From Streptomyces sp. B21-105 (lineage in GTDB: Bacteria; Actinomycetota; Actinomycetes; Streptomycetales; Streptomycetaceae), in assembly GCF_036898465.1 (NCBI RefSeq), contig NZ_JARUMJ010000001.1:248001-312000 (forward strand): 64,000 bases of DNA, read 5' to 3'. The position numbers and the translations under genes are program-made. The notes under the pieces were generated by a model. The model saw only the letters and a program-made list of their open reading frames with translations, did not search any database and had not been told where the DNA came from. Every line of letters begins with the position of its first letter. The stretch's first letter is position 1. This document shows, in pieces, positions 1,650 through 20,363 of the stretch.

Positions 1650-1716
1650 GTTGCTGTTTACGCAACGCGGTTCAGGTTGCGCAACTCAATGTGCCTTCCG
1701 CGCAGGTGGGTGTCAA
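1650..1716 (-). promoter_or_regulatory. Promoter plus 36-bp IclR-type operator of the dimethylglycine/sarcosine dehydrogenase gene
   Basis: Read on the minus strand: -35 TTGACA (1716-1711), 17-nt spacer, -10 CACATT (1693-1688), then a 36-bp site at 1650-1685 that begins GTTGC and ends GCAAC. The site would overlie the transcription start, as expected for a repressor. It is one of nine related sites in the island. Confidence 0.7.
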
Positions 1717-1768
1717 GGGGCCCGGGACCTCGGAAAACAGGGGGAGAAAAGGGCCCGGACACGGCGAT

Positions 1769-1811
1769 GCCCGGTGGGCGGCGCGCATCCCGCGCGCACC
1801 GCCCACCGGGC
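1769..1811 (-). terminator. Hairpin terminator after proX
   Basis: Perfect 13-bp arms (GCCCGGTGGGCGG at 1769-1781 and its complement at 1799-1811), 36 bases past the proX stop. No T-tract follows, which is common in Streptomyces. Confidence 0.65.
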
Positions 1812-1846
1812 AGGGTCCGACCGGCTGCCCACGCCGGTCCGTGCGG

Positions 1847-2824
1847 CTACTTGAGCCAGGCGTCCACCTTCGCGCGGTTGGCGTCGACCCACTTCTCGGC
1901 CGCGGCCTCGGGCGTCATCTTGTCCACGGCGATGTACTTGGCCACGATGTTCTGGTCGTCGTTCGTCCAGCTGAAGTTCTTCACCAGGTCATAGGCGGGG
2001 CTGCCCGAGTCGGCGAACTTCTTGCTGACGATCTTGTCCAGCTTGTAGACCGGGTAGTCGCAGGCGACCTTCTCGGCGTCGGCGTCGCAGCCCTCCTTGT
2101 AGTCGGGCAGCTTCACCTTCACCAGCGGCACCTCGGACATGAACCACTGGGGCTCGTAGAAGTAGCCGATCACCCATTCCTTGTTCTTCTCCGCCTTGCG
2201 GAAGGTCTGGATGAGGGCCGTCTCGCTGCCCGCGTACACGACCTTGTAGTCCAGCTTCAGGTTCTTGACCAGCGCCTCGTCGTTGGTGACGAACGACGGG
2301 TCGCCGTCGAGGAGCTGGCCCTTGCCACCGGACTCGGACGTCTTGAACTTCGCCGCGTACTTGTCGAGGTTCTCCCAGTTCGTGATGTCCGGGTGCTCCT
2401 TGGCCAGCCACGGCGGCACGTACCAGCCGATCAGGCCTTCGTTGCCGGTCGCACCGGCGTCCACGGCGGTCTTCTGGCCGGTGATGTACTTCTTCTTCAG
2501 GTCGTCGTGACCCCAGTTCTCGACGACCGCGTCGACCTCACCGGTCCCGAAGCCCTGCCAGGCGATCTCCTCCTTGAGGTCCTTCTTGGTGACCTTGCAG
2601 CCGAGGTCCTTCTGCGCGACGTGGGCGATGACCGCCGCGTTCGCCTCGTAACCGACCCACGGGTTGACCGCGAGGTTGAAGGTGCCGCACTTGGCGGAGC
2701 TGCCCGAGCCGCCCGCGTCCGAGGAGCTGTCGCCGACCTTCGCACCACCGCACGCGGTGAGGGTGAGGCCGAGAACCGCCATGCCGGCCGCGCCGACGCT
2801 CCATCGTCTTGCTTGCCTTGCCAT
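1847..2824 (-). CDS. proX: Glycine betaine/proline ABC transporter substrate-binding lipoprotein
   Basis: Extracytoplasmic binding protein of an osmolyte importer, anchored as a lipoprotein. 325 residues with a basic N-terminus, a hydrophobic segment and lipobox LTAC with the acylated Cys at residue 25, followed by an OpuAC-type periplasmic-binding domain. ATG at 2824 has a good ribosome site (AAGGAG) about 7 nt upstream. It is the last gene of an operon in the order aldehyde dehydrogenase, proV, proW, proX, with 13 nt between proW and proX. Placement with betaine catabolic genes suggests a role in carbon and nitrogen uptake rather than only osmoprotection. Confidence 0.92.
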   Translation of the reverse strand: MARQARRWSVGAAGMAVLGLTLTACGGAKVGDSSSDAGGSGSSAKCGTFNLAVNPWVGYEANAAVIAHVAQKDLGCKVTKKDLKEEIAWQGFGTGEVDAVVENWGHDDLKKKYITGQKTAVDAGATGNEGLIGWYVPPWLAKEHPDITNWENLDKYAAKFKTSESGGKGQLLDGDPSFVTNDEALVKNLKLDYKVVYAGSETALIQTFRKAEKNKEWVIGYFYEPQWFMSEVPLVKVKLPDYKEGCDADAEKVACDYPVYKLDKIVSKKFADSGSPAYDLVKNFSWTNDDQNIVAKYIAVDKMTPEAAAEKWVDANRAKVDAWLK

Positions 2825-2837
2825 GATCTGTTGCTCC

Positions 2838-4855
2838 TTATGCGCCGGTACGCCGCGCCGCGGCCTGGGTGATGCGGTCGAACATGACTCCGAGAAGGAC
2901 GATGGCGAGCCCTGCGGCGAGCCCCTTCCCGAACAGCTGTCCCTGCGAGAATCCGGCCACGACGTCGTAGCCGAGGGCGCCCGCCCCTACCAGGCCGCCC
3001 ACCACAACCATCGACAGCACGTAGATCAGGCCCTGGTTCGTGGCGAGAGTCAGGGCACCGCGCGCCATCGGCAGCTGGACCTTGGTGATGATCTGCCAGG
3101 TGTTGCACCCGGCTGAGGTGGCCGCCTCCACGGTGGCCGGGGGCACGTTCCGCACCCCGTCCGCGATGATCTTCATGGCGACGGGGGCCGCGTAGACGAT
3201 CGCGGCGACGATCGCCGTGAAACGGGTCGCGCCGAACAACGCGAGGAACGGCACCAGATAGACGAACGGCGGCATGACCTGTGCCGCGTCCAGGCTCGGC
3301 CGCAGCACGCGGTCCACCAGCCGGTTTCGGCCCATCCACACGCCGAAGCCGACGCCGAGCAGCATCACGAGAAGGGTGGCGACCACCGTCGAGGCCAGCG
3401 TCGTCATGCTGTCCGACCACATCCCGGTGGCGAGAAGCAGTCCCACGCACACCGCTGTGGTGATTCCGGCCCGACGTCCGCCGAGGACGACGCCGAGCGC
3501 GATCAGCACGGCGCCGACGAGCCACCACGGGGAGTCCGTGAGCAGCGACTGGAACGGGTTGAGCAGCCCGTTGGTGACGATGTCGCGGACGGTGTTGGTG
3601 ATACCCGACAGGTTGTCCTGCACCCAGGTCGTCGTGGTGTCCGCCGCGCTCGCGATGGAGCTGCCGATGCCGCCCTCGCCGGGGAACTCGGCCGCCCACA
3701 CATAGGTGTGCGACATGAAGACCAGGACGGCCGTGACGACCGCGCCCGCGCCGAGCAGCGGCCGCCGCCAGGCGAGGAACCGGTTCTTGGAACGTCGGGC
3801 CTCCTCCTCGCGTGCGCTCGCCGCGGTCGTGACCCGGTCGAGGACGATCGCCATGACGACGATGGACAGGCCCGCGTTGAAGGCGGTGCCCACGTCGAGC
3901 GACTGGAGCGCCTGGACGACGGTCTTGCCGAGGCCGGGAGCGTCGATGAGGGCCGCGATGGTCACCATGGCCAAGGCGGCCATGATGGTCTGGTTGACGC
4001 CCATCACCACGGTCCGCTTGGACATCGGCAGCAGGACCTTCAGCAGGGCCTGCCGGCGCGTCGCCCCAAGCGAGTCGGCCGCCTCCACCGTCGTCTTCGG
4101 CACGGTCCGGATGGCGTGCGCGGTGATCCGGATCGCGGGTGGCGCCGCGTAGATCACCGTGGCGATGGTGGCGGAGGCTCCGCCGATGAGGAAGAACAGG
4201 GTCAGCGGGGCGAGGTAGACGAAGGTCGGCATCGTCTGCATGAAGTCCAGCAGGGGCGTGATGATCCGGTTGACCCGGTCGGACAGTCCCGCCCACACGC
4301 CCAGCGGGATCCCGAACAGCAGCGCCACCAGGACCGCGGAGACGGTGAGCGCCAGGGTGTCCATGCTCTCCTGCCACAGGCCCTGCAGGCCGAGGAAGGT
4401 GAAGCCGGCCACCGCCAGCAGCGCGACCCGCCAGTTGCCGAAGGCCCAGGAGACATAGCCCGCGATGCCGACGACGCCGAGCCAGCCGATCTGCGGAAGG
4501 GGCCGGCCGACGGAGGGCTGGGAGATCAGCTCCTGCACGAAGGTGGCCACGGAATCGATGACCAGGCGGATCTCGTTGAAGAAGTACAGGAACAGCGGGT
4601 TGGAGTTGCGGTTCGCGCCGATCGAGTCGTTGACGTCGTTGAACCACCGGTGCAGATCGGTCAGGTCCGCCGCCCCGAGCGCGAGGGTCTGCTTGCCGCG
4701 CAGGACGGCGAACAGCACCAGCCAGACGGCCAGGATCGCGCCGAGGACCAGGGAGCGGCTGATCCTGCGGGGCTCCGCGGCCGGGGCCGGCTCCTCGGCG
4801 GGCCGGGTCTTCTCCGGTCGGCCCGGCGGCTCGGTCTTCTCCACGACGACGGTCA

Positions 4856-4856
<1 letters not shown>
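2838..4856 (-). CDS. proW: Glycine betaine/proline ABC transporter permease with two fused permease domains
   Basis: Membrane channel of the ProXWV importer. At 672 residues it is about twice the usual ProW length. It contains two BPD_transp_1 domains, each carrying the EAA-type loop: one near residues 255-275 (TTVEAADSLGATRRQALLKV) and one near 575-595 (ATVEAATSAGCNTWQIITKV). A tandem fusion of this kind would let one polypeptide form the whole channel. The proV stop and proW start overlap as TGATG at 4858-4854, so the two are translationally coupled. The N-terminal 40 residues are charged and proline-rich. Confidence 0.92.
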
Positions 4857-7431
<2,575 letters not shown>

Positions 7432-7455
7432 GCGCCGAGCCTTCCGACCGAATCC

Positions 7456-7520
7456 GTTGCGCATCGTGCACCCGATTGCTTGTGATGGAACACCCTGTCG
7501 GCTGGCCAGACAGACGTCAA
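7456..7520 (-). promoter_or_regulatory. Promoter plus 36-bp IclR-type operator of the betB-proVWX operon
   Basis: Minus strand: -35 TTGACG (7520-7515), 17-nt spacer, -10 CAGGGT (7497-7492), then the 36-bp site 7456-7491, whose forward-strand ends are GTTGC and GGAAC. It overlaps the alternative ATG of betB, which argues for the GTG start at 7431. Confidence 0.65.
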
Positions 7521-7569
7521 GACATTGGCGGATGACGATTTGGCCATGCGGTCACTTCCCCGCCCACTC

Positions 7570-7634
7570 TTGACCGCAGGCGGCGCCGAGCCGACCATGT
7601 TGCGTATCGCTCACCTTGTTGTGCAATACGCACC
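7570..7634 (+). promoter_or_regulatory. Promoter plus 36-bp IclR-type operator of purU
   Basis: -35 TTGACC (7570-7575), 17-nt spacer, -10 GACCAT (7593-7598), then a 36-bp site 7599-7634 beginning GTTGCGTAT and ending ATACGCACC, a clear imperfect inverted repeat. It lies divergently from the betB operator. Confidence 0.7.
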
Positions 7635-7647
7635 GACGGAGGCCGTC

Positions 7648-8529
7648 GTGTCCAAAAGGTTCCCCCGCCCGCAGCCTGGCCGTGAGTTCGTCCTCACCCT
7701 TTCCTGCCCCGACAGTGCCGGGCTGGTTCACGCCGTGAGCGGCTATCTCGTCAGGAACTCCGGCAACATCCTGGAAAGCCAGCAGTTCGACGACCGGCTC
7801 CAGGGCCGTTTCTTCATGCGGGTCCACTTCGACGTCTCCGACCCGAACGTCGATCTGGAGGGCCTGCGGTACCGCTTCGGCCCCGTCGCCCAGGCCTACG
7901 GCATCTCGTGGTCCCTCAGCGACGCCGCCACGCCGACCCGGACGCTGATCATGGTGTCCAAGTTCGGGCACTGCCTGAACGACCTGCTCTTCCGCCAGCG
8001 GGCGGGCGCGCTCAACATCGAGATCCCCGCGATCGTCTCCAACCACCAGGAGTTCGAGAAGCTCGCGGAGACGTACGGCATTCCGTTCCACCACGTCCCG
8101 GTGACCCGGGACACCAAGCCGGAGGCCGAGGCACGACTGCTCGAACTCGTCCGTGACCTGGACATCGACCTGGTGGTGCTGGCCCGCTACATGCAGATCC
8201 TCTCCGACGACCTGTGCAAGCAGCTCGAGGGCCGCGCCATCAACATCCACCACTCCTTCCTCCCCAGCTTCAAGGGCGCACGCCCCTACGACCAGGCCTA
8301 CGACCGCGGGGTGAAGCTCGTCGGCGCGACGGCGCACTATGTGACGTCGGACCTGGACGAGGGCCAGATCATCGAGCAGGGCGTCGTGCGGGTGGACCAC
8401 TCGCTGGACCCGGGCGAGCTGGTCACGGTCGGCCGGGACGTGGAGGCGCAGGTGCTCGCGCACGCCGTGAAGTGGCACAGCGAGAGCCGCGTGATGGTCG
8501 AGGGCAACCGCACGGTCGTCTTCCGCTGA
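7648..8529 (+). CDS. purU: Formyltetrahydrofolate deformylase
   Basis: Hydrolyses 10-formyl-THF to formate and THF, freeing folate in the cytosol. 293 residues: an N-terminal ACT domain (VLTLSCPDSAGLVHAVSGYL) and a formyltransferase domain with the motif INIHHSFLPSFKGARPYDQA. The GTG at 7648 is preferred because GGAGG lies 5 nt upstream, the length fits the family (about 280-290), and a complete promoter and operator occupy 7570-7634, inside a longer in-frame reading from 7525. Its place among betaine demethylation genes suggests it recycles THF loaded by the folate-linked dehydrogenase, giving formate for the nearby formate-dehydrogenase-like enzyme. Confidence 0.93.
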   Translation: MSKRFPRPQPGREFVLTLSCPDSAGLVHAVSGYLVRNSGNILESQQFDDRLQGRFFMRVHFDVSDPNVDLEGLRYRFGPVAQAYGISWSLSDAATPTRTLIMVSKFGHCLNDLLFRQRAGALNIEIPAIVSNHQEFEKLAETYGIPFHHVPVTRDTKPEAEARLLELVRDLDIDLVVLARYMQILSDDLCKQLEGRAINIHHSFLPSFKGARPYDQAYDRGVKLVGATAHYVTSDLDEGQIIEQGVVRVDHSLDPGELVTVGRDVEAQVLAHAVKWHSESRVMVEGNRTVVFR

Positions 8530-8550
8530 GCGGTACGACTTCCGCATACG

Positions 8551-8590
8551 AACGCCGGACGGGCGAAGAGCCCGTCCGGCGTTGCGTTTT
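8551..8590. terminator. Terminator between convergent purU and methylene-THF reductase genes
   Basis: Perfect 14-bp arms (AACGCCGGACGGGC at 8551-8564 and its complement at 8570-8583) with a GAAGA loop, followed on the plus strand by a run of T. It serves purU and may act on both strands. Confidence 0.85.
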
Positions 8591-8632
8591 TGGAGTCGTG
8601 TGGCGGCGGCAGGCGGCGCGGGAGCGGTGTGC

Positions 8633-9478
8633 TCAGCCCTCCAACCGGTCCAGCAGGGACCGCCGCCACCGCTCCGTCTCCGCGATCTGGTTGAAGGTGA
8701 ACAGGTGCAGCCCCGCAACCTTGGACGCCGGGTCTGTGAGGGCGTTCCGCGTGCGGGCGAGCAGCGTGTGAGGCGCGTAGCCGCCGGGCGCGGCGAGGCG
8801 CACGAACCACGACGGGTGCCGGGTCAGGAAACGGGCCGACTCCCCCACCCCGATCTTCGTCGCCATGGCCAGCAGCTTCGCCCGCTGCACGGGCCCCGCG
8901 ACGCCGACATGGACCGGCAGGGTCACGTCCCGGCGCCTGATACGCCCGAGCCACTCCCCCAGCACCCGCGGGTCGAAGCAGAGGTTGCTCACGAGGTACG
9001 TGGCGTGCTCGCGCTTGTCCCACATCGCCTGGACGGTGACGTCGTCGTGGATGAGCGGGTGGCTCTCGGGATAGCCGGTGACCCCGACGCGGGCGAACGG
9101 CCCGCCCAGCTCGCTCAGGCGGCGTAGCACCGGCAGCGACCCCTCGTAGGGTCCGGCCGGCGGGTCGGCGTCGCCCGCCGGGACGAACACGTCGTCCACG
9201 CCCGCCTCGCGCAGCCGGTCCACGACCTCCTTCAGGTGCAGGTCGTCCCGCAGGAGCCGGGCGGGGACGTGCGGGACCGTGCGGTACCCGTGCGCGGCCA
9301 GCCGGCCGGCGAGGTCGAGGGTCGGTTCCAGGCCCTTGACCGGTGACGCCGTCACGGTGACGACGACGTCCCGCGGGACATGGGCGAGGACCTTCTCCTC
9401 GGTGGTCCTCGCCGGCAGCACCTCGTAGCGGACCGTCCTCAGCAGCGCGCCGAGCCCGCCGAGTCCTGCGGCGGCCAA
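8633..9478 (-). CDS. Methylenetetrahydrofolate reductase family protein
   Basis: 281 residues with the TIM-barrel pattern of the methylene-THF reductase family, for example VTVTASPVKGLEPTLDLAGRL near the N-terminus and a region reading VGVTGYPESHPLIHDD. It likely interconverts methylene-THF and methyl-THF, or acts on the methylene-THF released by sarcosine or dimethylglycine demethylation. The start is a TTG at 9478, three bases after the betA stop, with GCGGAG inside the end of betA as ribosome site, so it is coupled to betA. It is shorter and more divergent than housekeeping MetF, so it may be a dedicated one-carbon enzyme of this catabolic pathway. Confidence 0.8.
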   Translation of the reverse strand: MAAAGLGGLGALLRTVRYEVLPARTTEEKVLAHVPRDVVVTVTASPVKGLEPTLDLAGRLAAHGYRTVPHVPARLLRDDLHLKEVVDRLREAGVDDVFVPAGDADPPAGPYEGSLPVLRRLSELGGPFARVGVTGYPESHPLIHDDVTVQAMWDKREHATYLVSNLCFDPRVLGEWLGRIRRRDVTLPVHVGVAGPVQRAKLLAMATKIGVGESARFLTRHPSWFVRLAAPGGYAPHTLLARTRNALTDPASKVAGLHLFTFNQIAETERWRRSLLDRLEG

Positions 9479-9481
9479 CGT

Positions 9482-11152
9482 CTACTCCGCCCGCAGCCGC
9501 GCGTCACCGTGGCGGTAGTACGCGGCGTTCGACGGCGCCAGGGGCTTCTTGCCGAGGATCAGGTCGGCGGCCTTCTCGGCGATCATCATCACCGGTGCGT
9601 AGATGTTGCCGTTGGTGACGTACGGCATGACGGAGGCGTCCACCACCCGCAGTCCGTCCACGCCGTGCACGCGCATGCTGGCGGGGTCGACGACGGACAT
9701 CTCGTCTGTGCCCATCTTGCAGGTGCAGGACGGGTGCAGGGCGGTCTCGCCGTCCTCGGCGACCCAGGCGAGGATCTCCTCGTCCGACTCGACGGACGGT
9801 CCGGGGGAGATCTCCCCGCCGTTGTAGGGGGCGAGCGCGGGCTGGTTGAGGAGCTTGCGGGCCACCCGGATCGCCTCGACCCACTCGCGGCGGTCCTGCT
9901 CGGTGGAGAGGTAGTTGAAGCGCAGGGCGGGGTGCTCCCCCGGGTCCCGGCTCTTGATCTTCACCGAGCCGATGGCGTCGGAGTACATGGGTCCGACGTG
10001 CACCTGATAGCCGTGTCCGCCGGCCGGCACGGAGCCGTCGTAGCGGACCGCGATCGGCAGGAAGTGGAACATCAGGTTGGGATAGTCCACGTCCTCGTTG
10101 CTGCGGGCGAACCCGCCGGCCTCGAAGTGGTTGGTGGCGGCCGGGCCCTTGCGGAACAGCCACTGGAGCCCGATGAAGGGCGCCCGCCACTTCGCCAGGT
10201 ACGGCTGCATGGAGACGGGCTGCTTGCAGGCGTACTGGATGTAGACCTCCAGGTGGTCCTGCATGTTCTCGCCGACGCCGGGGAGGTCGTGGACGACGTC
10301 GATGCCGAGCGCCCGCAGTTCCCCGGCGTTGCCGACGCCGGAGAGCTGGAGCAGCTGCGGCGAGTTGATCGCGCCGCCGCAGAGGATGACCTCCTTGGCG
10401 CGCACCTGCTTCGGGGCGCCCTTGCCGCGCCGGTACTCGACGCCGACCGCCTTCTTGCCCTCGAAGAGCACACGGGTGACGAGGGCGCGGGTGGTGACCG
10501 TGAGGTTGGGGCGTTTGCGGACGGGCTTCAGATACGCCTTCGAGGCGGAGAGCCGGCGACCGCGGTGGACGTTGCGGTCGAACTTGGCGAAGCCTTCCTG
10601 CCGGAAGCCGTTGACGTCGTCGGTGGGGGCGTGGCCCGCTTCCTCGGTGGCCTTGAGGAAGGCGCCGAAGAGAGGGTTCGTCGCCGGGCCGCGCTCCAGG
10701 ACGAGGGGGCCGCTGTGGCCGCGGAACTCGTCGTCGGGGTCGGCCGCGAGGCAGTTCTCCATGCGCCGGAAGTAGGGCAGGCAGTGCGCGTAGTCCCAGG
10801 ACTCCATGCCGGGATCGGCGGCCCAGCGCTCGTAGTCCATGGGGTTGCCACGCTGGAAGATCATGCCGTTGATGCTGCTGGACCCGCCCAGTACCTTGCC
10901 GCGCGCGTGGTAGACGCGCCGACCGCCCATGTGGGGCTCGGGCTCGGACTCGTACTTCCAGTCGTAGAAGCGGCTGCCGATCGGGTAGGTCAGCGCCGCG
11001 GGCATGTGGATGAAGACGTCCCACGGGAAGTCCGACCGGCCCGCTTCCAGGACCAGAACCCGGTTCGCCGGGTCGGCGGACAGCCTGTTTGCCAGTGCAC
11101 TGCCCGCGGAACCACCACCGACGATCACGAAGTCGTACTGCACAGGAGCCAT
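9482..11152 (-). CDS. betA: Choline dehydrogenase (GMC family FAD oxidoreductase)
   Basis: Oxidises choline to betaine aldehyde. 556 residues beginning [20 protein letters not shown], the GMC FAD-binding motif. GMC signature 1 is around [20 protein letters not shown], and the C-terminal active-site region contains [10 protein letters not shown] and the conserved [17 protein letters not shown]. The ATG at 11152 is chosen over an in-frame start at 11236 because the FAD motif should lie near the N-terminus, GAGG precedes it, and an operator sits at 11202-11237. It is followed by a coupled methylene-THF-reductase-family gene and is divergent from iclR. Confidence 0.88.
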
Positions 11153-11201
11153 GGTGCCTCGTCTCACTCGCGCCGTAGATATGCGTGGCATGCTAGACCC
11201 G

Positions 11202-11237
11202 GTCGCGCTATACGCACCAGGTTGCGAACGGCGCAAC
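11202..11237 (-). promoter_or_regulatory. 36-bp IclR-type operator of betA
   Basis: Ends GTCGC and GCAAC on the forward strand, with an internal dyad GTTGCG-N5-CGCAAC on the minus strand. It lies 50 bp upstream of the betA ATG. A convincing -35 is not seen here, unlike the sister sites. Confidence 0.6.
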
Positions 11238-11265
11238 TTATGGAAGTTCGCCGCGGGGTGCTTGC

Positions 11266-11311
11266 TTGCAATCGCGTTGTTTACTGCGCGTATAGTTGCA
11301 CGGTGAGCAAC
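11266..11311 (+). promoter_or_regulatory. Promoter and autoregulatory IclR-type operator of the iclR gene
   Basis: A TATAGT -10 at 11291-11296 lies 6 nt before the GTG start at 11303, suggesting a leaderless transcript; TTGCAA at 11266-11271 is a possible -35 with a long 19-nt spacer. A 36-bp site at 11276-11311 (ends GTTGT and GCAAC) covers the -10 and the start codon, as expected for autorepression. Confidence 0.6.
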
Positions 11312-12100
11312 TACAGCCTTGACTCAGAAACGTCGAACGCACCGGCGGGCGGGGTGCAGTCGGTCGACCGCGCCATCAGCGTCCTGGAGATCCTCGCGCA
11401 GCGTGGCGAAGCCGGTGTCAGCGAGGTGGCCGCCGAGATCGAGGTGCACAAGTCCACGGCCTTCCGTCTCCTCGGAGCCCTGGAAGCGCGCGGCCTGGTC
11501 GAGCAGGCCGGCGAGCGCGGCAAGTACCGGCTCGGCTTCGGCATCGTGCGCCTGGCCGGCGCGGTCACGGGCCGTATCGACATCACGCAGCAGGGCCGTC
11601 CGGTGTGCGAGCGGCTGGCCGAGGAGATCGGCGAGACCGTCAACATCGCCGTGATGCAGGAGCAGTACGCGATCAACCTGTACCAGGTGCGCGGACCGGG
11701 AGCGGTCACCGCGCACAACTGGGTGGGCCAGCTGACTCCGCTGCACGCCACGTCGAGCGGCAAGATCCTGCTGGCCCACCTGCCGGCGAAGGAGCGCGCC
11801 ACGCTGCTGACGGCCGCGGGCATGAAGAAGGTCACCCCGTACACCATCACCGCGAAGACGAAGCTGGAGAAGAACCTCGTCACCGCCCGGGAGCAGGGTT
11901 ACGCCTTCACCCTGGAGGAGCTGGAGATCGGTCTGCACGCCATGGCCGCCCCGGTGCGCAACCGGGACGGCGAGGTCATCGCCGCTCTCAGCGCCTCCGG
12001 ACCGTCGTACCGGTTCACCGAGGAACGGCTGCACGAACTGTCCCCGGTGCTGGTCAAGGGCGCCGACGAGATCAGTCACCGCATGGGCTTCCTGGGCTGA
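11303..12100 (+). CDS. IclR family transcriptional regulator of the choline/betaine island
   Basis: 265 residues. The N-terminal winged HTH is typical of IclR ([18 protein letters not shown], then [20 protein letters not shown]), and the C-terminal effector-binding domain contains [16 protein letters not shown]. The start is the GTG at 11303; the longer open frame upstream is antisense to betA. It sits divergently from betA and ends one base away from the convergent Rieske oxygenase gene. Nine 36-bp-class sites at the promoters around it, one overlapping its own start codon, make it the obvious candidate regulator. The effector may be choline, glycine betaine or a demethylation product; that part is inference. 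Confidence 0.93.
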
Positions 12101-12101
12101 T

Positions 12102-13232
12102 TCACCCCCGGGGAGCGCCGAGGCGCTCGTTCACCCAGTCATGGAAGGCACCGATGTGGTGTTCGCTGGGCACCAGCACACCGCCCTTGGCGTACAGCCG
12201 TGAGCTCATGCCGGGCTGGGTCCGCTCACAGGCCTCGAAGTCCTGCCGGTTGACCCGGTCGAAGAGTTCCACGGACCGGCTGACGTCCTTGCCGCTCTCG
12301 ACGACGTGCGGCAGATAAAGCCAGTCGCACTCGACGATCGTGCGGTCGGCCGCCACCGGGTACATCCGGTGGAAGATCACGTGGTCGGGGACGAGGTTGA
12401 TGAACACCTGCGGCCGCACGGTGATCGCGTAGTAACGCCGGTCCTGGTCCTCGGCGACCCCCGGAATGCGGTCCAGGCCCTCGGAGCCGTCCACCGTGAA
12501 CCCCTGGACCTCCTCACCGAACTCCGCGCCATGGCCCACGTAGTACTGGGCCGCGTACCCGTCCGCGAACTCCGGCAGCACCTCGGTCAGTTCGGGATGG
12601 ATCGTCGCGCAGTGGTAGCACTCCATGAAGTTCTCGATGACGAGCTTCCAGTTCGCCTTCACGTCATAGGTGATCCGACGCCCGACGGACAGGTTGTCGA
12701 TGTCGTACCGCTCGATCGACTCGACGTCGCCCAGGCGGGCCACGACCTCACCGATGACGTCCTCCTCGAAGGACGGCGGGTTCTCCGCGAGGCAGACCCA
12801 GACGTAGCCGAGCCATTCCCGCACGGCGACACTCACCAGGCCGTACTCGGTGCGGCCGACGTCGGGCATCTTGGTCAGGTTCGGCGCCGCGACCAGCTTG
12901 CCGTCCAGACCGTACGTCCAGGCGTGGTACGGGCACTGGAAGGCCCGCTTGACCTCGCCGGACTCCTCGGTGCACAGCTTGGCCCCGCGATGCCGGCAGA
13001 CGTTGAAGTAGGCGCGGATCGAGTTGTCCCTGGCCCGGGTGACCAGGATGCTCTCGCGGCCCACGTCGACGGTGCGGAAGGCCCCGGGCTTCGCCAGCTC
13101 GGACGCCCGGGCGACGCAGAACCACATGGTCTCGAATATGTGCTCCTGCTCCTGGGCGAAGACCGCCGGATCGGTGTAGGAGGAGCCGGGAAGAGTGGCG
13201 ATCAGGCTGTCGGGCAGGCCGGTCGAGGTCAC
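12102..13232 (-). CDS. Rieske non-heme iron oxygenase, glycine betaine monooxygenase type (GbcA-like)
   Basis: Terminal oxygenase likely removing a methyl group from glycine betaine as formaldehyde. 376 residues. The Rieske [2Fe-2S] ligands are Cys79-x-His81 and Cys100-x2-His103 (CRHRGAKLC and CPYHAW). The mononuclear iron motif ENFMECYHCATIHPE places His207 and His212. The GTG at 13232 has GAGGAG 7 nt upstream and is preferred over the ATG at 13316, which lies inside the operator. GbcA of Pseudomonas has this architecture; stachydrine or carnitine oxygenases are close relatives and remain possible, but betA, betB and dimethylglycine dehydrogenase nearby favour betaine. Confidence 0.85.
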   Translation of the reverse strand: MTSTGLPDSLIATLPGSSYTDPAVFAQEQEHIFETMWFCVARASELAKPGAFRTVDVGRESILVTRARDNSIRAYFNVCRHRGAKLCTEESGEVKRAFQCPYHAWTYGLDGKLVAAPNLTKMPDVGRTEYGLVSVAVREWLGYVWVCLAENPPSFEEDVIGEVVARLGDVESIERYDIDNLSVGRRITYDVKANWKLVIENFMECYHCATIHPELTEVLPEFADGYAAQYYVGHGAEFGEEVQGFTVDGSEGLDRIPGVAEDQDRRYYAITVRPQVFINLVPDHVIFHRMYPVAADRTIVECDWLYLPHVVESGKDVSRSVELFDRVNRQDFEACERTQPGMSSRLYAKGGVLVPSEHHIGAFHDWVNERLGAPRG

Positions 13233-13300
13233 GGGGCACTCCTCGGTGAACGTCGCGTAGGGGTCATTCGGACGCCGGGAGAGGAACGACTCCGGACGGC

Positions 13301-13368
13301 GTTGTGTGTGGAGCAACGCTGCGCGCTATGGGCAACCGCAGCATGGGGTGGCGCCGGGGTGCTGTCAA
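13301..13368 (-). promoter_or_regulatory. Promoter plus 36-bp IclR-type operator of the Rieske oxygenase gene
   Basis: Minus strand: -35 TTGACA (13368-13363), 17-nt spacer, -10 CATGCT (13345-13340), operator 13301-13336 (ends GTTGT and GCAAC). The -35 hexamer overlaps the stop codon of the upstream reductase gene. Confidence 0.7.
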
Positions 13369-14528
13369 GACGTTCCGGCGGCCAGTTGCTTGCGCGCCCG
13401 CATGAACAGCCGCGGCTGGTTCATGCCGAGCACGGCGACCGGCCGGCCGTCACGCCGGTAGACGGCGAGGACGTCGCGGTCGTCCGCCGAGCCCGCCTCG
13501 ACGGTGATGCTGTCGGCCTCGGCCGCGTGGCCGGCGAACTGGATGCGGACGCCGTACTGGTCCGACCAGAAGTACGGCGGCCGGGGCACACCCGGCTCGA
13601 CCGCACCCCCCGCCAGCAGGGTGGCGACGGCGGCCTCCGGGCGCTCGCGCGCGCCGGTCCAGTGCTCCACGCGGCGGTGACGGCCGACCCGGGGGTCGTA
13701 CCAGTTGGCGCAGTCGCCGACCGCGACCACACCGGCCAGGCTGGTACGGCCGTCCGCACCGCACTTCACGCCGTCGTCGAGGGCGATGCCGGAACCCTCC
13801 AGCCATGCGACGCACGGGCGGGCCCCGACTCCGACGACGACGATGTCGGCGGGGACGCTGCGGCCGTCCTCCAGCAGGACGGCGTCGACCCGGTGCTCCC
13901 CGCTCAGCCCCTTGACACCGACGCCGCACAACAGCCGCACACCGTGATCGGTGTGGAGACCGGAGACGACGGCCCCCATGGTGGCGCCGAGCGGCCCGGC
14001 GAGCGGGGTGGGGGCCGCTTCCACGACGGTCACGTCGAGACCGAGGGCGTACGCGGTGGAGGCGACCTCGGCGCCGATGAAACCGCCGCCTATCACCACC
14101 AGGCGTCCGCCGCCCGCCAGTTCGTCCCGCAGGGCACGGGCGTCGTCCAGGGTGCGCAGGGTGTGCACTCCGGCGAGGCCCGCGGAGCCCGGCAGGGCGC
14201 GCGCCACGGCACCGGTGGCGATGACGAAGCCGTCGGCACGCACCTCACGTCCGTCGGCGAGACGGACGGTGCGCGCGGGGTGGTCGAGGCCGGTGGCGCG
14301 GGTGCCGAGCAGCCACTCCGCCGCCAGGTCCTCGCCCTCCGCCTCCAGGGCGAGTTCGGCCTCGCCGAGGGTGCCGGACAGGAACTCCTTGGACAGCGGG
14401 GGCCTGTCGTAGGGGCGGTGCGGCTCGTCCCCGATGACGACCAGGCGTCCGTCGAAGCCCTGCTTGCGCAGCGAGCGCGCCGCCGACAGACCGGCGAGGG
14501 AGGCGCCGACCACGGCGACGGTCCTCAC
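13365..14528 (-). CDS. FAD-dependent ferredoxin reductase of the Rieske oxygenase system
   Basis: 387 residues of the pyridine nucleotide-disulfide/ferredoxin reductase family. It has an FAD motif (VVGASLAGLSAARSL) at the N-terminus and a second Rossmann motif for NAD(P)H (VVIGGGFIGAEVAS). The C-terminal reductase domain contains FWSDQYGVRIQFAGHA, typical of BphA4/CamA-like reductases. It would pass electrons from NAD(P)H to the ferredoxin encoded just upstream. The start is the GTG at 14528, which overlaps the ferredoxin stop by four bases (GTGA), so the two are translationally coupled. Confidence 0.88.
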   Translation of the reverse strand: MRTVAVVGASLAGLSAARSLRKQGFDGRLVVIGDEPHRPYDRPPLSKEFLSGTLGEAELALEAEGEDLAAEWLLGTRATGLDHPARTVRLADGREVRADGFVIATGAVARALPGSAGLAGVHTLRTLDDARALRDELAGGGRLVVIGGGFIGAEVASTAYALGLDVTVVEAAPTPLAGPLGATMGAVVSGLHTDHGVRLLCGVGVKGLSGEHRVDAVLLEDGRSVPADIVVVGVGARPCVAWLEGSGIALDDGVKCGADGRTSLAGVVAVGDCANWYDPRVGRHRRVEHWTGARERPEAAVATLLAGGAVEPGVPRPPYFWSDQYGVRIQFAGHAAEADSITVEAGSADDRDVLAVYRRDGRPVAVLGMNQPRLFMRARKQLAAGTS

Positions 14529-14887
14529 GCGGGACCCCCGGCGAGCCGGGCGGAGATGCAGGGCGGCAGGTTGGGCGCCTCCGTGGAGAGCCGGACGTGG
14601 ATCATGCCGTCCTCGACGACGACCTCGTGCGTCCGGACCGGCAGCTTCGCCGGCGGGGAGTCGACCGAGCCGGTGCGCAGGTCGAACTTGGAGGCATGCA
14701 GCGGGCATTCCACCTCGCAGCCCTCCAGCCAGCCGTCGGCGAGCGAGGCGTCCTGGTGGGTGCAGGTGTCGTCGATGGCGAAAACCTCGCCGTCGTCGGT
14801 GTGGAACACCGACACCGGCGGGTCGACGTCGAGCCTGAAGGCCTCACCTCGCGGGAGATCCGCGAGACGGCACGCGGGAATCATCAT
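14525..14887 (-). CDS. Rieske [2Fe-2S] ferredoxin of the oxygenase system
   Basis: 120 residues, a stand-alone Rieske ferredoxin that would carry electrons to the oxygenase. Ligands are Cys42-x-His44 (CTHQDASL) and Cys61-x2-His64 (CPLHASKFDLRTG). Two adjacent ATG codons (14887 and 14884) follow GAGG; either could be used. It forms an operon with the FAD reductase, preceded by its own IclR-type operator. Pseudomonas glycine betaine monooxygenase uses a single GbcB reductase instead, so this is a three-component layout. Confidence 0.88.
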   Translation of the reverse strand: MMIPACRLADLPRGEAFRLDVDPPVSVFHTDDGEVFAIDDTCTHQDASLADGWLEGCEVECPLHASKFDLRTGSVDSPPAKLPVRTHEVVVEDGMIHVRLSTEAPNLPPCISARLAGGPA

Positions 14888-14895
14888 GACACCTC

Positions 14896-14963
14896 GGTGC
14901 GTATAACGAAACGGTTTGCGGTAAGCGCAACATCAGTCTGGAGTCGCCCAGAACCCTTGTCAA
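14896..14963 (-). promoter_or_regulatory. Promoter plus 36-bp IclR-type operator of the ferredoxin-reductase operon
   Basis: Minus strand: -35 TTGACA (14963-14958), 17-nt spacer, -10 CAGACT (14940-14935), operator 14896-14931 (ends GGTGC and GCAAC on the forward strand). Confidence 0.7.
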
Positions 14964-15112
14964 GGCATCCAGAGGCCCCTTCGAGTCCCGCAAGGCGTTG
15001 CGGCATCCACAACTCACCTCACATAGAACAACTCAAGACGCCTACGTCGTCGCCCCGCGGCGACCGCGGGGCGAGGGCGGGCGCATGCTCCCGGAGGCGG
15101 ACGCGAAGACCC

Positions 15113-15153
15113 GGCGGGCCCGTGGCCGCGCAGAGCGGTGCCACGGGCCCGCC
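15113..15153 (-). terminator. Hairpin terminator after the BCCT transporter gene
   Basis: Perfect 14-bp arms (GGCGGGCCCGTGGC at 15113-15126, complement at 15140-15153), about 20 bases past the transporter stop on the minus strand. Confidence 0.65.
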
Positions 15154-15173
15154 GGTCGGCGGGTCCGGCGGTC

Positions 15174-16931
15174 TCAGACGGCGGACGAGACGGACGGCGA
15201 GGACTCCCCGGTCTGCGAGGGCCCCGCACTCTCCTCGCCGGCCGTGGACGTGGCGGGGCCGATGCGAAGCTCGAAGTCCCCGTCGTATTTCTCGTGGCCG
15301 GCGATGACGGCCGTCTCGACGGCCTCCTCGCCCATGCGTCCGCGGATGATGAGCGGATCGTGACGCAGGTCCCGGTTGAGCGCGACGCACAACCCGATCA
15401 TCACGAGGGTGAAGGGGGCCGCCGCGAGGATGGTGAGGTTCTGGAGCCCCGTGAGCGCGTCGCCCTTGCCTCCGCCGATGAGCAGCATGACGGCGGCGAC
15501 GGCCCCGGTCAGCACACCCCAGAACACCACGACACCCCGGGAGGGTTCCAGGGAGCCCCGCTGCGAGAGCGTCCCCATCACGATGGAGGCGGCGTCCGCG
15601 CCGGAGACGAAGAAGATGCCGACGAGCACCATCACGACGACGCTCGTCACCGTGGCCATGGGGTACTGCTGGAGGACGTCGAAGAGCTGACCCTGGGCGG
15701 TCGCGGCGTCGTTGAGGCGACCGGACTCCTGGAGACGCATCGCCGAGCCGCCGAAGACGGCGAACCAGAGCAGGCTGACACTGCTGGGCACCAGGATGAC
15801 GCCCCCGACGAACTGCCGGATGGTACGGCCGCGGCTGATGCGCGCGATGAACATGCCGACGAACGGCGTCCAGGAGATCCACCACGCCCAGTAGAAGACC
15901 GTCCAGCTCGCCAGCCAGTCGGCGACCCCCTTGCCGCTGGACGCCTCGGTACGGCCCGCCATCTGGGCGAGGTCGCCGAGGAAGGCGCCGACGGAGGTGG
16001 GCAGCAGGTCGAGGATGAAGACGGTCGGGCCGACGAGGAACACGAACAGCGCGAGGGCCACCGCCAGCACCATGTTGGTGTTGGAGAGCCACTGGATGCC
16101 CTTCTCGATCCCGGACACCGCCGAGGCGACGAAAGCCACGGTCAGCACGGCGATCACGAGGACCAGCAGTCCGGTGCCGACCGACCCCAGCCAGCCGAGT
16201 CCCGTGAAGCCGCTGCCGATCTGGAGGGCGCCCAGCCCGAGGGAGGCCGCCGAGCCGAAGAGGGTGGCGAAGATGGCGAGGACGTCGATGGCCCTGCCGG
16301 GCCAGCCGTTCACCCTCTTCTCACCGAGCAACGGGGTGAAGACCGCGCTGATCAGCTGGCGGCGTCCGCGCCGGAAGGTGCTGTAGGCGATGGCGAGACC
16401 CACGACCGCGTACATCGCCCACGGGTGGAGCGTCCAGTGGAAGAGGGTCGTGGCCATGGCGGTCTCCATGGCCTGGTTGGCGTCGGCCGGGTCGGTGCCC
16501 GGCGGCGGTGTGACGAAGTGCGAGAGCGGCTCGCTCACGCCGTAGAACATCAGGCCGATGCCCATGCCGGCGCTGAACATCATGGCGATCCACGAGACGG
16601 TGCGGAACTCGGGCTGCTCCCCCTCCTTTCCGAGGGTGATCCGCCCGTAACGGCTCATCGCCAGCCAGAGGGCGAAGACCACGAAGCCCGAGGCGGCGAG
16701 GACGAAGGCCCAGCCGCCGTTGCGGATCGTCCCGTCCAGCAGCTTCCCGGACACGCTCTCCAGCGCGTCGGTCGCGGTGGCTCCCCACACGACGAAGGCC
16801 AGGGTGAGGGCCGCGGAGACGCCGAACACGACGGGGTCGGTCCGGGGACGGCCGGCGGCCGCCCCGCCTCTGGGCGGTTCCTGTCCGACGGGACGACCTG
16901 CGCTCCCGTTCCGTTCGCGGGCTCTGCTCAT
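15174..16931 (-). CDS. BCCT family choline/betaine/carnitine transporter
   Basis: Secondary carrier for quaternary ammonium compounds, probably driven by sodium or protons. 585 residues with about 12 membrane segments. The BCCT signature regions GIGLMFYGVSEPLSHF and, near the middle, VFYWAWWISWTPFVGMFIAR are present, with the tryptophan-rich substrate-site segment intact. A hydrophilic C-terminal tail of about 60 acidic residues follows the last helix. The ATG at 16931 has AAGGA 8 nt upstream; an in-frame upstream extension to 17054 runs through the promoter region. Gene context points to choline or glycine betaine as substrate. Confidence 0.92.
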   Translation of the reverse strand: MSRARERNGSAGRPVGQEPPRGGAAAGRPRTDPVVFGVSAALTLAFVVWGATATDALESVSGKLLDGTIRNGGWAFVLAASGFVVFALWLAMSRYGRITLGKEGEQPEFRTVSWIAMMFSAGMGIGLMFYGVSEPLSHFVTPPPGTDPADANQAMETAMATTLFHWTLHPWAMYAVVGLAIAYSTFRRGRRQLISAVFTPLLGEKRVNGWPGRAIDVLAIFATLFGSAASLGLGALQIGSGFTGLGWLGSVGTGLLVLVIAVLTVAFVASAVSGIEKGIQWLSNTNMVLAVALALFVFLVGPTVFILDLLPTSVGAFLGDLAQMAGRTEASSGKGVADWLASWTVFYWAWWISWTPFVGMFIARISRGRTIRQFVGGVILVPSSVSLLWFAVFGGSAMRLQESGRLNDAATAQGQLFDVLQQYPMATVTSVVVMVLVGIFFVSGADAASIVMGTLSQRGSLEPSRGVVVFWGVLTGAVAAVMLLIGGGKGDALTGLQNLTILAAAPFTLVMIGLCVALNRDLRHDPLIIRGRMGEEAVETAVIAGHEKYDGDFELRIGPATSTAGEESAGPSQTGESSPSVSSAV

Positions 16932-17038
16932 CAGATCGTTCCTTCCACAGACAGCGGTGGATGCTCCGCCCGGGCGACGGTCGCGCCCGGGCAGGAAGGG
17001 AGTGGTATCGACAACGGGGCGACTGCCACCAAGATCAG

Positions 17039-17104
17039 GTTGCGAATAGTGCACCAGAATCCACTATGAGCAACAACGATCTGACGCCCGGGGGAGGCTG
17101 TCAA
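17039..17104 (-). promoter_or_regulatory. Promoter plus 36-bp IclR-type operator of the BCCT transporter gene
   Basis: Minus strand: -35 TTGACA (17104-17099), 17-nt spacer, -10 GATCGT (17081-17076), operator 17039-17074. This is the clearest palindrome of the set: GTTGCGAATAGTG and CACTATGAGCAAC match as inverted 13-mers at 11 of 13 positions, separated by 10 nt. Confidence 0.75.
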
Positions 17105-17169
17105 GGGATGCGTCAAGACGACGTGCGCGTGCTCCGGATCGGGCAGCGGAGCGTTCTCCTCGTCGGACC

Positions 17170-19485
17170 TCAGGTCCCCGTGGGCCGGCCGGCGGGGACC
17201 GGCTCCAGGCGGACGACGATCGACTTCGAGGTGGGGGTGTTGCTGACCGCCGCCGTGGAGTCCAGGGGGACCAGGACGTTGGTCTCGGGGAAGTAGGCCG
17301 CGCAGCAGTCGCGGGGCGTCGGGTAGGGCACCACGCGGAAGGCCGGCGCCCTGCGTTCCACACCGTCGTCGTACTCGCTGACGATGTCGACGAGGTCCCC
17401 GTCGGCCAGGCCCCGGTCGGCGAGGTCGTCGGGATGCACGAAGAGGACCCGGCGGCCCTGGTGGATGCCGCGATAGCGGTCGTCCAGGCCGTAGACGGTG
17501 GTGTTGTACTGGTCGTGGGAACGGAGGGTCTGGAGCAGCAGCCGGCCCGGCGGCACATGGGGCCGTTCCAGCGGGTTGGCGGTGAAGTGGGCCAGCCCCG
17601 TGGCGGTGGTGAACCGGCGTTCGTCGCGCGGCGGGTGGGGCAGCGCGAAGCCGCCGGGCTCTCGTACCCGGTGGTTGAAGTCCTGGAAGCCGGGGATCAC
17701 GCGCGCTATGCGGTCGCGAATACTGTCGTAGTCCTTCTCGAACTCCTCCCAGGGCACGTGCGAGCCCGCTTCCCCGAGCGCGGCACGCGCCATCCGGCAG
17801 ATGATCGCGGGCTCGCTCAGCAGATGATCGGAGGCGGGGGCGAGGCGCCCTCGGGAGAGGTGCACCATGCCCATGGAGTCCTCGACGGTGACCTGTTGGG
17901 GTCCGGCAGGCCGCAGGTCGGCCTCGGTGCGGCCGAGACACGGCAGGATGAGCGCCTGCTCGCCTGCGACGACGTGCGAGCGGTTGAGCTTGGTGGAGAT
18001 CTGCACGGTGAGGCGGCAGTTGCGCAGGGCCCGCTCGGTGAGGCCGGTGTCGGGGGCGGCGGCGGCGAAGTTGCCGCCGAGTGCGACGAAGACCCGTACG
18101 TCGCCGTCGCGCATGGCACGGACGCTCTCGACCGCGTCGTGGCCGTGGCGCCTCGGGGGCGTGAACGCGAACTCGGCGCCGAGCGCGTCCAGGAACGCGT
18201 CGTCCGGCTTCTCGTAGATGCCCATGGTGCGGTCGCCCTGCACGTTGGAGTGGCCGCGCACCGGGCAGAGGCCGGCGCCCGGGCGGCCGATGTTGCCGCG
18301 CAGCAGGAGGAAGTTCACGACGTCGCGGATGGTGGGGACGGAGTGCTTGTGCTGGGTGAGGCCCATGGCCCAGCAGACGACGATCTTCTCGGCGGCCGGC
18401 ACCTCGCGGAACGCGGCCCGGATCTCCTCCTCGGGCAGGCCGGTGGCCGTCAGGATCTCGTCCCACGACACCCTTCGGGCGTGCTCGGCGAACTCCTGGA
18501 AGCCGTGTGTGTACCGGTCGATGAAGGGCGTGTCCAGACAGCTGCCGGGAACCTGGTCCTCCGCCTCCAGCAGCATGCGGTTGAAGGCCTGGAACAGCGC
18601 CTGGTCCCCGCCCAGTCTGATCTGGAGGAACCGGTCGGCCAGGCGGGTGCCGCCGCCGAGGACACCGGACGGCCGCTGGGGGTTCTTGAACCGCAGCAGC
18701 CCCGCCTCGGGAAGCGGGTTGACCGCGATGATCCGGGCGCCCCGGCGCTTGGCGGTCTCCAGCGAGGAGAGCATCCGGGGGTGGTTGGTGCCGGGGTTCT
18801 GACCGACCACGAGGATGAGGTCGGCGTCGTGCAGATCCTCCAGGGTGACGCTTCCCTTGCCGATGCCTATCGTCTCCGTCAGCGCCGATCCGCTGGACTC
18901 GTGGCACATGTTGGAGCAGTCCGGCAGGTTGTTGGTGCCGAGCATCCGGACGAACAGCTGGTACAGGAAAGCGGCCTCGTTGCTCGCCCGGCCGGAGGTG
19001 TAGAAGGCGGCCTGGTCGGGGTGGTCGAGGGCGGCGAGTTCACGGGCGATCACGGCGAACGCGTCGTCCCAGGAGATCGGCCGGTAGCGGTCGTCGCCGG
19101 CCGCGCGGTACATGGGGTGGGTCAGCCGGCCCTGCCGGCCGAGCCAGTAGTCACTGGCGGGGAGCAGGTCCGCCAGGGTGTGCCCGGCGAAGAAGTCCGG
19201 GGTGACCCGGCGCACGGTGGCCTCCTCGGCCACCGCCTTGGCGCCGTTCTCGCAGAACTCCGCGGTGTGCCGGTGCTCCGGCTCGGGCCAGGCACAGCCG
19301 GGGCAGTCGAAGCCCTCCTTCTGGTTGACCCGGAGGAGGGTCAGCAGGCCCCGGCGGGCTCCCATCTGCTCGCCGGCATGCCGGAGCGAGGAGGTGACCG
19401 CGGGGAGGCCGGCAGCGTACTCCTTCGGGGGACCGACCCGCAGCCGGGCGTCTCCGGGGTCGTCGGCAGGTGCGTTGCGAGTCAT
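17170..19485 (-). CDS. FdhF/YdeP family molybdopterin oxidoreductase (formate dehydrogenase-like)
   Basis: Bis-MGD molybdoenzyme of 771 residues, the usual length of the YdeP/CbbBc family. The N-terminal iron-sulfur cysteines are in FDCPGCAWPEPE and AEFCENGAKA. The Mo-site region contains LPDCSNMCHESSGSAL, and the C-terminal molydopterin dinucleotide-binding domain contains LLLQTLRSHDQYNTTVYGLDDR. It would oxidise formate to CO2. The ATG at 19485 (MTRNAPADD) is chosen; a GTG four codons upstream has no room for a ribosome site. Co-regulation with purU through the shared operator class suggests it disposes of formate from betaine demethylation. The exact substrate of this family is not settled. 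Confidence 0.82.
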   Translation of the reverse strand: MTRNAPADDPGDARLRVGPPKEYAAGLPAVTSSLRHAGEQMGARRGLLTLLRVNQKEGFDCPGCAWPEPEHRHTAEFCENGAKAVAEEATVRRVTPDFFAGHTLADLLPASDYWLGRQGRLTHPMYRAAGDDRYRPISWDDAFAVIARELAALDHPDQAAFYTSGRASNEAAFLYQLFVRMLGTNNLPDCSNMCHESSGSALTETIGIGKGSVTLEDLHDADLILVVGQNPGTNHPRMLSSLETAKRRGARIIAVNPLPEAGLLRFKNPQRPSGVLGGGTRLADRFLQIRLGGDQALFQAFNRMLLEAEDQVPGSCLDTPFIDRYTHGFQEFAEHARRVSWDEILTATGLPEEEIRAAFREVPAAEKIVVCWAMGLTQHKHSVPTIRDVVNFLLLRGNIGRPGAGLCPVRGHSNVQGDRTMGIYEKPDDAFLDALGAEFAFTPPRRHGHDAVESVRAMRDGDVRVFVALGGNFAAAAPDTGLTERALRNCRLTVQISTKLNRSHVVAGEQALILPCLGRTEADLRPAGPQQVTVEDSMGMVHLSRGRLAPASDHLLSEPAIICRMARAALGEAGSHVPWEEFEKDYDSIRDRIARVIPGFQDFNHRVREPGGFALPHPPRDERRFTTATGLAHFTANPLERPHVPPGRLLLQTLRSHDQYNTTVYGLDDRYRGIHQGRRVLFVHPDDLADRGLADGDLVDIVSEYDDGVERRAPAFRVVPYPTPRDCCAAYFPETNVLVPLDSTAAVSNTPTSKSIVVRLEPVPAGRPTGT

Positions 19486-19602
19486 CTGAAGCGCCACTCC
19501 GGGGTGTAGGGGATCAGAGCCGTCCCGTCGCCGGGCGTCCCGGCCTCCCGCGCGGGCCGTGCGGCCGTGCGGGCCGTCGGCACAGACCCCGAGAGGTTAC
19601 GA

Positions 19603-19676
19603 GGTTGCGTACTACGGAACAGTGCCGCCATATGCAACGATGACACCAAGAAAGCGTGATCCCGACCCCCTGTCAA
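19603..19676 (-). promoter_or_regulatory. Promoter plus IclR-type operator of the formate dehydrogenase-like gene
   Basis: Minus strand: -35 TTGACA (19676-19671), 17-nt spacer, -10 TTTCTT (19653-19648), then a site at 19604-19638 with ends GTTGC and GCAAC. This site is 35 bp, one shorter than the others, and lies 9 nt rather than 0-3 nt from the -10. Confidence 0.6.
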
Positions 19677-20290: not shown

Positions 20291-20337
20291 CCCGAACCGC
20301 GGCAGGACCCAGTTACTCTGCTCGAAGTGGTTCGAAC

Positions 20338-20347
20338 GTAGTACTAC
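20338..20347. promoter_or_regulatory. Palindrome upstream of the TetR gene
   Basis: A perfect 10-bp palindrome GTAGTACTAC lies 17 bp before the tetR-family ATG, next to TTCGAA at 20331-20336. It is a plausible autoregulatory operator, since TetR proteins bind palindromes near their own promoters. Confidence 0.35.
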
Positions 20348-20363
20348 ATTTGGAGTGACGTCG

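Follow-up and report, generated by a model that had tools for sequence, protein, structure and literature searches.

The 64,000-nt stretch of Streptomyces sp. B21-105 analysed here (C1:248001-312000 within a 9.21-Mb genome), termed the window, carries an island of genes for choline and glycine betaine catabolism together with a gene for an IclR-family regulator. Ten copies of one operator are found in the window, and three to its left and one at a distance bring the total to 14. As far as sequence comparison can tell, these sites are very probably the tandem operators of an IclR-family repressor acting on a regulon for choline and glycine betaine catabolism. An earlier note on this DNA had listed nine of them and proposed the IclR protein as the repressor; one operator class for the island, with most copies over the transcription start, is borne out, but the regulon exceeds the nine sites.

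Re-reading of the sequences placed all nine sites where they had been reported, eight with 36 bp and one with 35 bp. The GTTGC/GCAAC ends with inverted halves described before resolve into a 17+2+17 layout of two GTTGC-N7-GCAAC palindromes, the centres of which are 19 bp apart in operators 1-8 and, in the one base shorter operator 9, 18 bp apart. The first 17 bp follow the symmetric consensus GTTGCgcatnncGCAac, with the GTT and AAC ends present. Around 486 palindrome anchors (at least 9 of 10 fixed bases matched; one pair can count from both ends), a second palindrome was observed at 19 bp for 246 and at 18 bp for 16, and other distances from 10 to 60 occurred at most three times each. Models with a single palindrome or a variable spacer were rejected; when spacers of 0-5 nt were allowed at gbcA, the 39 strong sites without exception had one of 2 nt. 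Because the palindromes are 19 bp apart, two dimers, making up one tetramer, would be able to bind side by side on them.

The sites are rare within the window and the genome. In a leave-one-out matrix analysis, every one of the eight 36-bp sites ranks above all other window positions. With the ungapped matrix operator 9 reaches no more than 4.8 bits; once the matrix of the other eight sites is shortened by one position, its score rises to 31.2 bits, versus 10.5 at the next-best place in the window. The claim that no further full-length match exists in the window requires an amendment: the nine sites were confirmed, but 14997-15032 is a clear runner-up, with 15.9 bits in the nine-site matrix and 25.1 bits in a matrix from relatives. 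A sequence-only model of the nine sites returned from the whole genome, at E<=10, the nine sites, C1:239012-239047 and a weak match at 4804649 (150 of 1472 first-look candidates scored). The relatives-based model R2 gave island sites, C1:413682 (E 0.92) and again 4804649 (150 of 1135 candidates scored). We regard C1:4804649 as a chance match, which lies inside a GntR-like reading frame (named by a look at the sequence) and scores 4.4 bits in the relatives' matrix. An exhaustive pattern scan of the genome with up to three mismatches, which overlooks operators 5 and 9 and C1:239012, yielded nine places, of which eight, C1:237411 among them, belong to the island and one (C1:8267293) lies outside it; the control gave two matches. 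The genome scan proposed in the earlier note revealed no random matches at the density of the island.

The operators occupy a regular position in the promoters. Assuming a 17-nt spacer, seven of them begin 2, 0, 0, 3, 3, 1 and 9 nt after the -10, as had been proposed, and therefore cover the transcription start. Operators 1, 2, 3, 6, 7 and 8 are preceded by a TTGAC(A/C/G) hexamer whose end lies 23-26 nt away (TTGACA at 25 nt for operator 1), and operator 9 by one ending 32 nt away; the distances are 23 nt at the fdr2 site, 24 nt at the mscR site and 32 nt at the gbcA2 site. Counted from the TTGAC(A) -35, most operators start at about -6 to -3. From this geometry we infer that IclR bound to the operator would cover the transcription start and block initiation, and would thereby repress the breakdown of choline and betaine, along with the one-carbon branch, until the protein is released by a compound of the pathway. 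The iclR gene has a putative promoter, TTGCAA-N19-TATAGT, and since its -10 is inside operator 5 and its start near the GTG, the sequence suggests a leaderless, self-repressed transcript; IclR would act on its own gene through operator 5.

Conservation in orthologous islands, a check that the earlier note had asked for, was assessed in the best 80 of 231 IclR orthologue loci (L001-L080; 85-96% identity, named genomes, nearly all Streptomyces), using the nine-site matrix without retraining and a threshold of at least 14 bits. Per-gene counts omit genes of less than 60% identity and those with a start missing or off the locus. Sites recur upstream of orthologous genes: dmgdh in 42/42, purU in 48/48, iclR in 80/80, fdx in 72/72 and bcct in 10/11 relatives. 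The operon-internal genes proX (0/60), proW (0/57), proV (0/62) and fdr (0/73) lack such sites upstream, metF, likewise internal to an operon, has them in 2/53, and the coding positions of these loci hold a single match in 703,268. All 47 readable badh-purU regions contain two sites, as do 62 of the 66 betA-iclR regions, the other four being set aside as odd. Initial counts of 60/60 for badh and 66/66 for betA were discarded because the searched region extended into the site of the divergent neighbour. The promoter geometry is kept as well, with TTGAC ending 26-27 nt before the site at dmgdh (42/42), 27-28 nt at fdx (72/72), 24-25 nt at purU (43/48) and bcct (10/10), and, for gbcA, at 26-27 nt in 36 of 39, at 36 nt in two and at no position in one. 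A total of 551 out of 557 sites are located within 350 nt of a start mapped for an island gene or for mscR, discussed below. The six others (L003:123, L004:18666, L034:1430, L057:95, L059:7 and L073:7788) are possibly further targets, or belong to starts cut off at the locus ends.

Site-anchored alignment of six promoters further reveals that the 36-bp block is 79-94% identical, compared with 45-76% in the -35 zone, 40-98% in the 8 nt directly preceding the site and 42-72% in the 60 nt after it. These values bear on the idea that the sites are a mere resemblance of conserved GC-rich promoters, by chance or shared descent and without function. Orthologous promoters do share ancestry, and counts across relatives are not independent. 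Nevertheless, the zones 36-140 nt upstream are only 31-48% identical, heavily changed sites retain the ends and the spacing, the reversed sequence reaches at least 13 bits at 39 of 1,487,957 positions, and coding interiors do so at none of 703,268. We consider this idea practically negligible, and the comparison indicates that selection maintains the sites in related bacteria.

The window IclR consists of an N-terminal helix-turn-helix and a C-terminal effector domain (1mkm, E 8.1e-31, residues 20-263), and its gene and the sites tend to occur together. In a survey of 296 genomes from the class, the model matched in 43 and an IclR at E<=1e-60 was recorded in 49; both are present in 31, only the site in 12, only the IclR in 18 and neither in 235 (Fisher p 8e-20). 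Outside the genus the corresponding numbers are 20, 12, 15 and 221 (Fisher p 5e-13). The 12 site-only genomes belong to families f25 and f34 and are of 1.2-2.4 Mb; their matches, of 14.4-16.5 bits, are all weak and partial, with E-values relative to small genomes. When the 30 IclR loci with the best matches were inspected, a site of at least 14 bits turned up within ~1.5 kb in 21, and in four of the remaining nine (L101-L104) island sites lie at a greater distance. Sites in other families of actinomycetes go along with IclR relatives of about 46-71% identity, and 36-bp sites stand beside island-type genes in 19 of 20 regions of up to 20 kb, a figure that is not a rate, the regions having been selected for holding matches or IclR genes. 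The twentieth region holds a 27-bit site, L141:9387 (genome G089), but no island homologues. This site is 599 kb from the IclR gene of that genome; the IclR locus of G089 itself (L114) has two sites. Site-linked IclRs retain the recognition helix, as VHKST or IHKST and in two second copies as VHRST, down to about 46% identity, and IclRs of 33-38% identity from the same loci begin this helix with LARST, LPKST or LAKST.

Co-occurrence, neighbourhood and the shared recognition helix support IclR as the regulator, as the earlier note had it, but the genome encodes a second paralogue with the same helix, with an operator and another GbcA-like oxygenase gene as neighbours, and either or both proteins may be "the" repressor. 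This paralogue probably shares the operator sites. Proteobacterial choline regulons use BetI of the TetR family, and the TetR-family gene at 20364-20942 weakly matches BetI (43.7 bits, cut-off 201.3); such another regulator might bind the sites, with IclR a bystander. No TetR match above 50% identity was found in the 80 loci chosen by iclR, some of which end before the corresponding position, and on this ground the TetR protein was rejected as the binder. In addition, the sites accompany IclR genes in other families, and tandem palindromes about 19 bp apart are an IclR pattern (PMC8222616). We consider a regulator other than IclR very improbable.

The IclR regulon extends beyond the nine promoters. 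Beyond the left edge of the window, the island goes on with folD, soxB, folP (named from sequence), the second IclR, a second GbcA-like oxygenase, a second reductase, glyA, sdaA and fdhD, and the relatives' matrix locates sites at C1:239012 (37.0 bits), C1:237328 (28.4) and C1:237411 (23.9). The distant site, C1:413682-413717 (26.5 bits), lies ~150 kb from the island, 5' of the gene for S-(hydroxymethyl)mycothiol dehydrogenase, mscR (692.4 bits versus a cut-off of 512.9), an enzyme that detoxifies formaldehyde; also behind the site is a small gene for which NCBIfam gave no match at E<=1e-60. Betaine demethylation releases formaldehyde, and for this reason the distant site is on-pathway. A site of at least 13 bits is found upstream of mscR in all 62 loci of L001-L080 in which its start was found, and in five of seven other loci, loci with a truncated or distant match being set aside. 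In 62 of the 80 relatives' loci mscR is part of the island region analysed, whereas in the present genome the gene and its operator seem to have become detached from the island.

Operator 7 also has a companion. A second site is situated 101-103 bp from the counterpart of operator 7 in 47 of 72 fdx orthologues, or 45 of 72 by a stricter test, as against 9 of 14,184 values at other offsets. It is 60% identical, its flanks 34-51%, and is less conserved than the start-site copies. A DNA loop is not claimed, as 101-103 bp correspond to 9.6-9.8 turns, which is not a whole number. The features of the island are summarized in Table 1. Choice of the alternative betaine aldehyde dehydrogenase ATG at 7464 would place that start within operator 2. 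To the right of the island, the reading frame at 19795-20358 shows, by eye, a GGDTDT motif, such as is known from ADP-ribosylglycohydrolases.

Table 1. Operators and genes of the choline/betaine island (window positions unless prefixed C1)
Feature	Position	Strand	Remarks
Operator 1	1650..1685	-	5' of dimethylglycine/sarcosine dehydrogenase-like gene (dmgdh), then folD, soxB (leftward, past window edge)
Operator 2	7456..7491	-	5' of betaine aldehyde dehydrogenase (badh) and proVWX (leftward)
Operator 3	7599..7634	+	5' of purU (rightward)
Operator 4	11202..11237	-	5' of betA and metF-like gene (leftward)
Operator 5	11276..11311	+	5' of iclR; overlaps TATAGT -10 and GTG start codon
Operator 6	13301..13336	-	5' of GbcA-like Rieske oxygenase gene (leftward)
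Operator 7	14896..14931	-	5' of ferredoxin (fdx) and ferredoxin reductase (fdr) genes (leftward)
Additional (tenth) window operator	14997..15032	-	101 bp upstream of operator 7; absent from the earlier list
Operator 8	17039..17074	-	5' of BCCT transporter gene (leftward)
Operator 9	19604..19638	-	35 bp, palindrome centres 18 bp apart; 5' of FdhF/YdeP-type oxidoreductase gene (leftward)
IclR-family regulator	11303..12100	+	265 aa, recognition helix VHKSTAFRLL
Second IclR paralogue	C1:239243-240037		Left of window; 78% identical, same recognition helix; beside second GbcA-like oxygenase and operator
Dimethylglycine/sarcosine dehydrogenase-like flavoprotein	3..1610	-	Runs on left of window; no NCBIfam cut-off reached
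proX, proW, proV-like choline/betaine ABC transporter	1847..5941	-	
Betaine aldehyde dehydrogenase-like	5962..7431	-	588.6 bits vs cut-off 668.6; GTG start at 7431
purU, formyltetrahydrofolate deformylase	7648..8529	+	
Methylenetetrahydrofolate reductase-like gene (metF-like)	8633-9478	-	After betA; below cut-off
Choline dehydrogenase betA	9482-11152	-	
GbcA-related Rieske oxygenase	12102..13232	-	Below NCBIfam cut-off
Ferredoxin reductase and Rieske ferredoxin	13365..14887	-	
BCCT-family transporter	15174..16931	-	Nearest a betaine carrier
FdhF/YdeP-family molybdopterin oxidoreductase	17170..19485	-	Possibly formate dehydrogenase
TetR-family gene	20364-20942		Distantly BetI-like

Comparison with known systems shows that the operator layout is already known for the IclR family, and that the regulon and the assignment of its regulator are new. 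The earlier note knew of no operator of this form for a Streptomyces IclR protein; tandem palindromes 18-22 nt apart have, however, been described for 94 orthologous groups of the family, including a GTT-11-AAC motif class, and many IclR proteins are predicted to bind such palindromes, consistent with tetramers (PMC8222616). The present operators resemble the GTT-11-AAC subgroup of Suvorova and Gelfand 2021 (PMC8222616) in the 17-bp GTT...AAC palindrome, the centre spacing of 18-22 nt, the probable IclR regulator, and its predicted action on its own gene and neighbouring operons. Most positions fit the inner consensus YCRYW3RYGR of that work, with the exceptions of position 4 (G, not Y) and position 14 (C, not R). 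The proteins described there as a rule control their own genes and one or two operons next to them, in contrast to about 14 sites here, and the words "betaine" and "choline" do not occur in the main text of that paper. The motif TTTTTGCGCATAGCGCAAAAA of TphR of Comamonas (Table 1 of PMC8222616) contains a core, TTGCGCATAGCGCAA, that is nearly identical to the half-operator, whereas TphR differs in serving terephthalate genes and in being listed with a single palindrome. E. coli IclR, a tetrameric repressor (PMC11323563), and AllR have solved chains to which the window IclR is detectably similar (1tf1, 2o99), but another operator sequence (PMC8222616, Table 1) and ligand-contact residues that are partly not kept in the window IclR. 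Literature searches, made within open-licence papers, turned up no such regulator for actinomycetes and no operator of an IclR protein at their choline/betaine genes. GbdR and BetI, the regulators of proteobacterial betaine and choline genes, have the same metabolic role but belong to the AraC and TetR families, not IclR.

The best NCBIfam match of the window IclR is BhcR of Paracoccus denitrificans, at 197.6 bits and under the equivalog cut-off of 350; there, too, putative sites are present between a divergent gene pair (PMC11323563). The BhcR contact residues for glyoxylate, Gly160, Ile161 and Asp212, are replaced by Ser, Ser and Thr in the window IclR, and Ser239 and Ser241 are kept; the positions are those given for the glyoxylate sensors BhcR, IclR and AllR in Table 1 of PMC11323563, with the numbering transferred by eye via the AllR alignment. 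The altered contacts weaken glyoxylate as an inducer by analogy with BhcR. Asn148-Trp149 is present in all 80 close relatives, and this tryptophan could face a quaternary amine, a weak idea since IclRs of 33-38% identity from other loci also have the Trp.

Several observations weigh against the repressor reading. Relatives' counts share ancestry, and the R2 listing was without operator 9, 14997 and C1:237411. A site is absent at gbcA in 33 of 72 relatives (present in 39), and fdh is weakly conserved, with a site of at least 14 bits in two and of at least 10 bits in four of nine orthologues. The site-less gbcA genes have a median gap to the preceding gene of 90 nt, versus 135 nt with a site, as if co-transcribed with that gene. 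The strict model found no site in 18 of the 49 IclR-bearing genomes; matrix inspection of nine of these revealed a site near the IclR gene in seven and none in two. TTGAC is missing upstream of the chosen site in betA 62/66, iclR 79/80 and badh 42/60, a tally in which the site chosen at badh and betA often belonged to the divergent neighbour, and the betA promoter of the window is without the TTGAC-operator geometry. With two paralogues, the window IclR may not be the only regulator. The -35 hexamers (TTGAC) are good, but those at -10, for the most part CANNNT or GANNNT, are poor, which might reflect promoters that need an activator; BhcR, the nearest named relative, is an activator in vivo (PMC11323563).

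The last two points lead to the view that IclR binds the sites mainly as an activator or dual regulator, in which the upstream copy 14997-15032 (about -106 to -71) would recruit polymerase with the inducer and the start-site copy would repress. Expression in vivo requires BhcR, for which a putative site lies 5' of the -35 (PMC11323563), and the upstream fdx copy is kept at its distance in the 47 orthologues noted above. Set against this, seven of nine promoters have the site 0-9 nt after the -10 and the iclR -10 is covered, all of which are blocking positions, and the upstream copy is absent at 25 of 72 fdx promoters. Activation or a dual role seems unlikely, though it deserves some weight, and repression over the transcription start remains our preferred reading.

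A broader picture can be sketched tentatively, and we rate it as possible rather than favoured. The regulon would span several actinomycete families; in the present strain two IclR paralogues would share the tandem operator, sense a methylated amine or formaldehyde via a pocket unlike that of glyoxylate sensors (Asn148-Trp149), and couple betaine breakdown to the disposal of formaldehyde and formate, and at some promoters a second operator at the fixed distance of 101-103 bp would add a looped or activating layer. Choline and glycine betaine are common plant and soil compounds, and the analysis names a regulator, an operator and a set of genes with which the induction of their breakdown in actinomycetes can be tested. 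The operator flags functional partners, such as the formaldehyde dehydrogenase operon ~150 kb off, and can aid gene annotation in other genomes.

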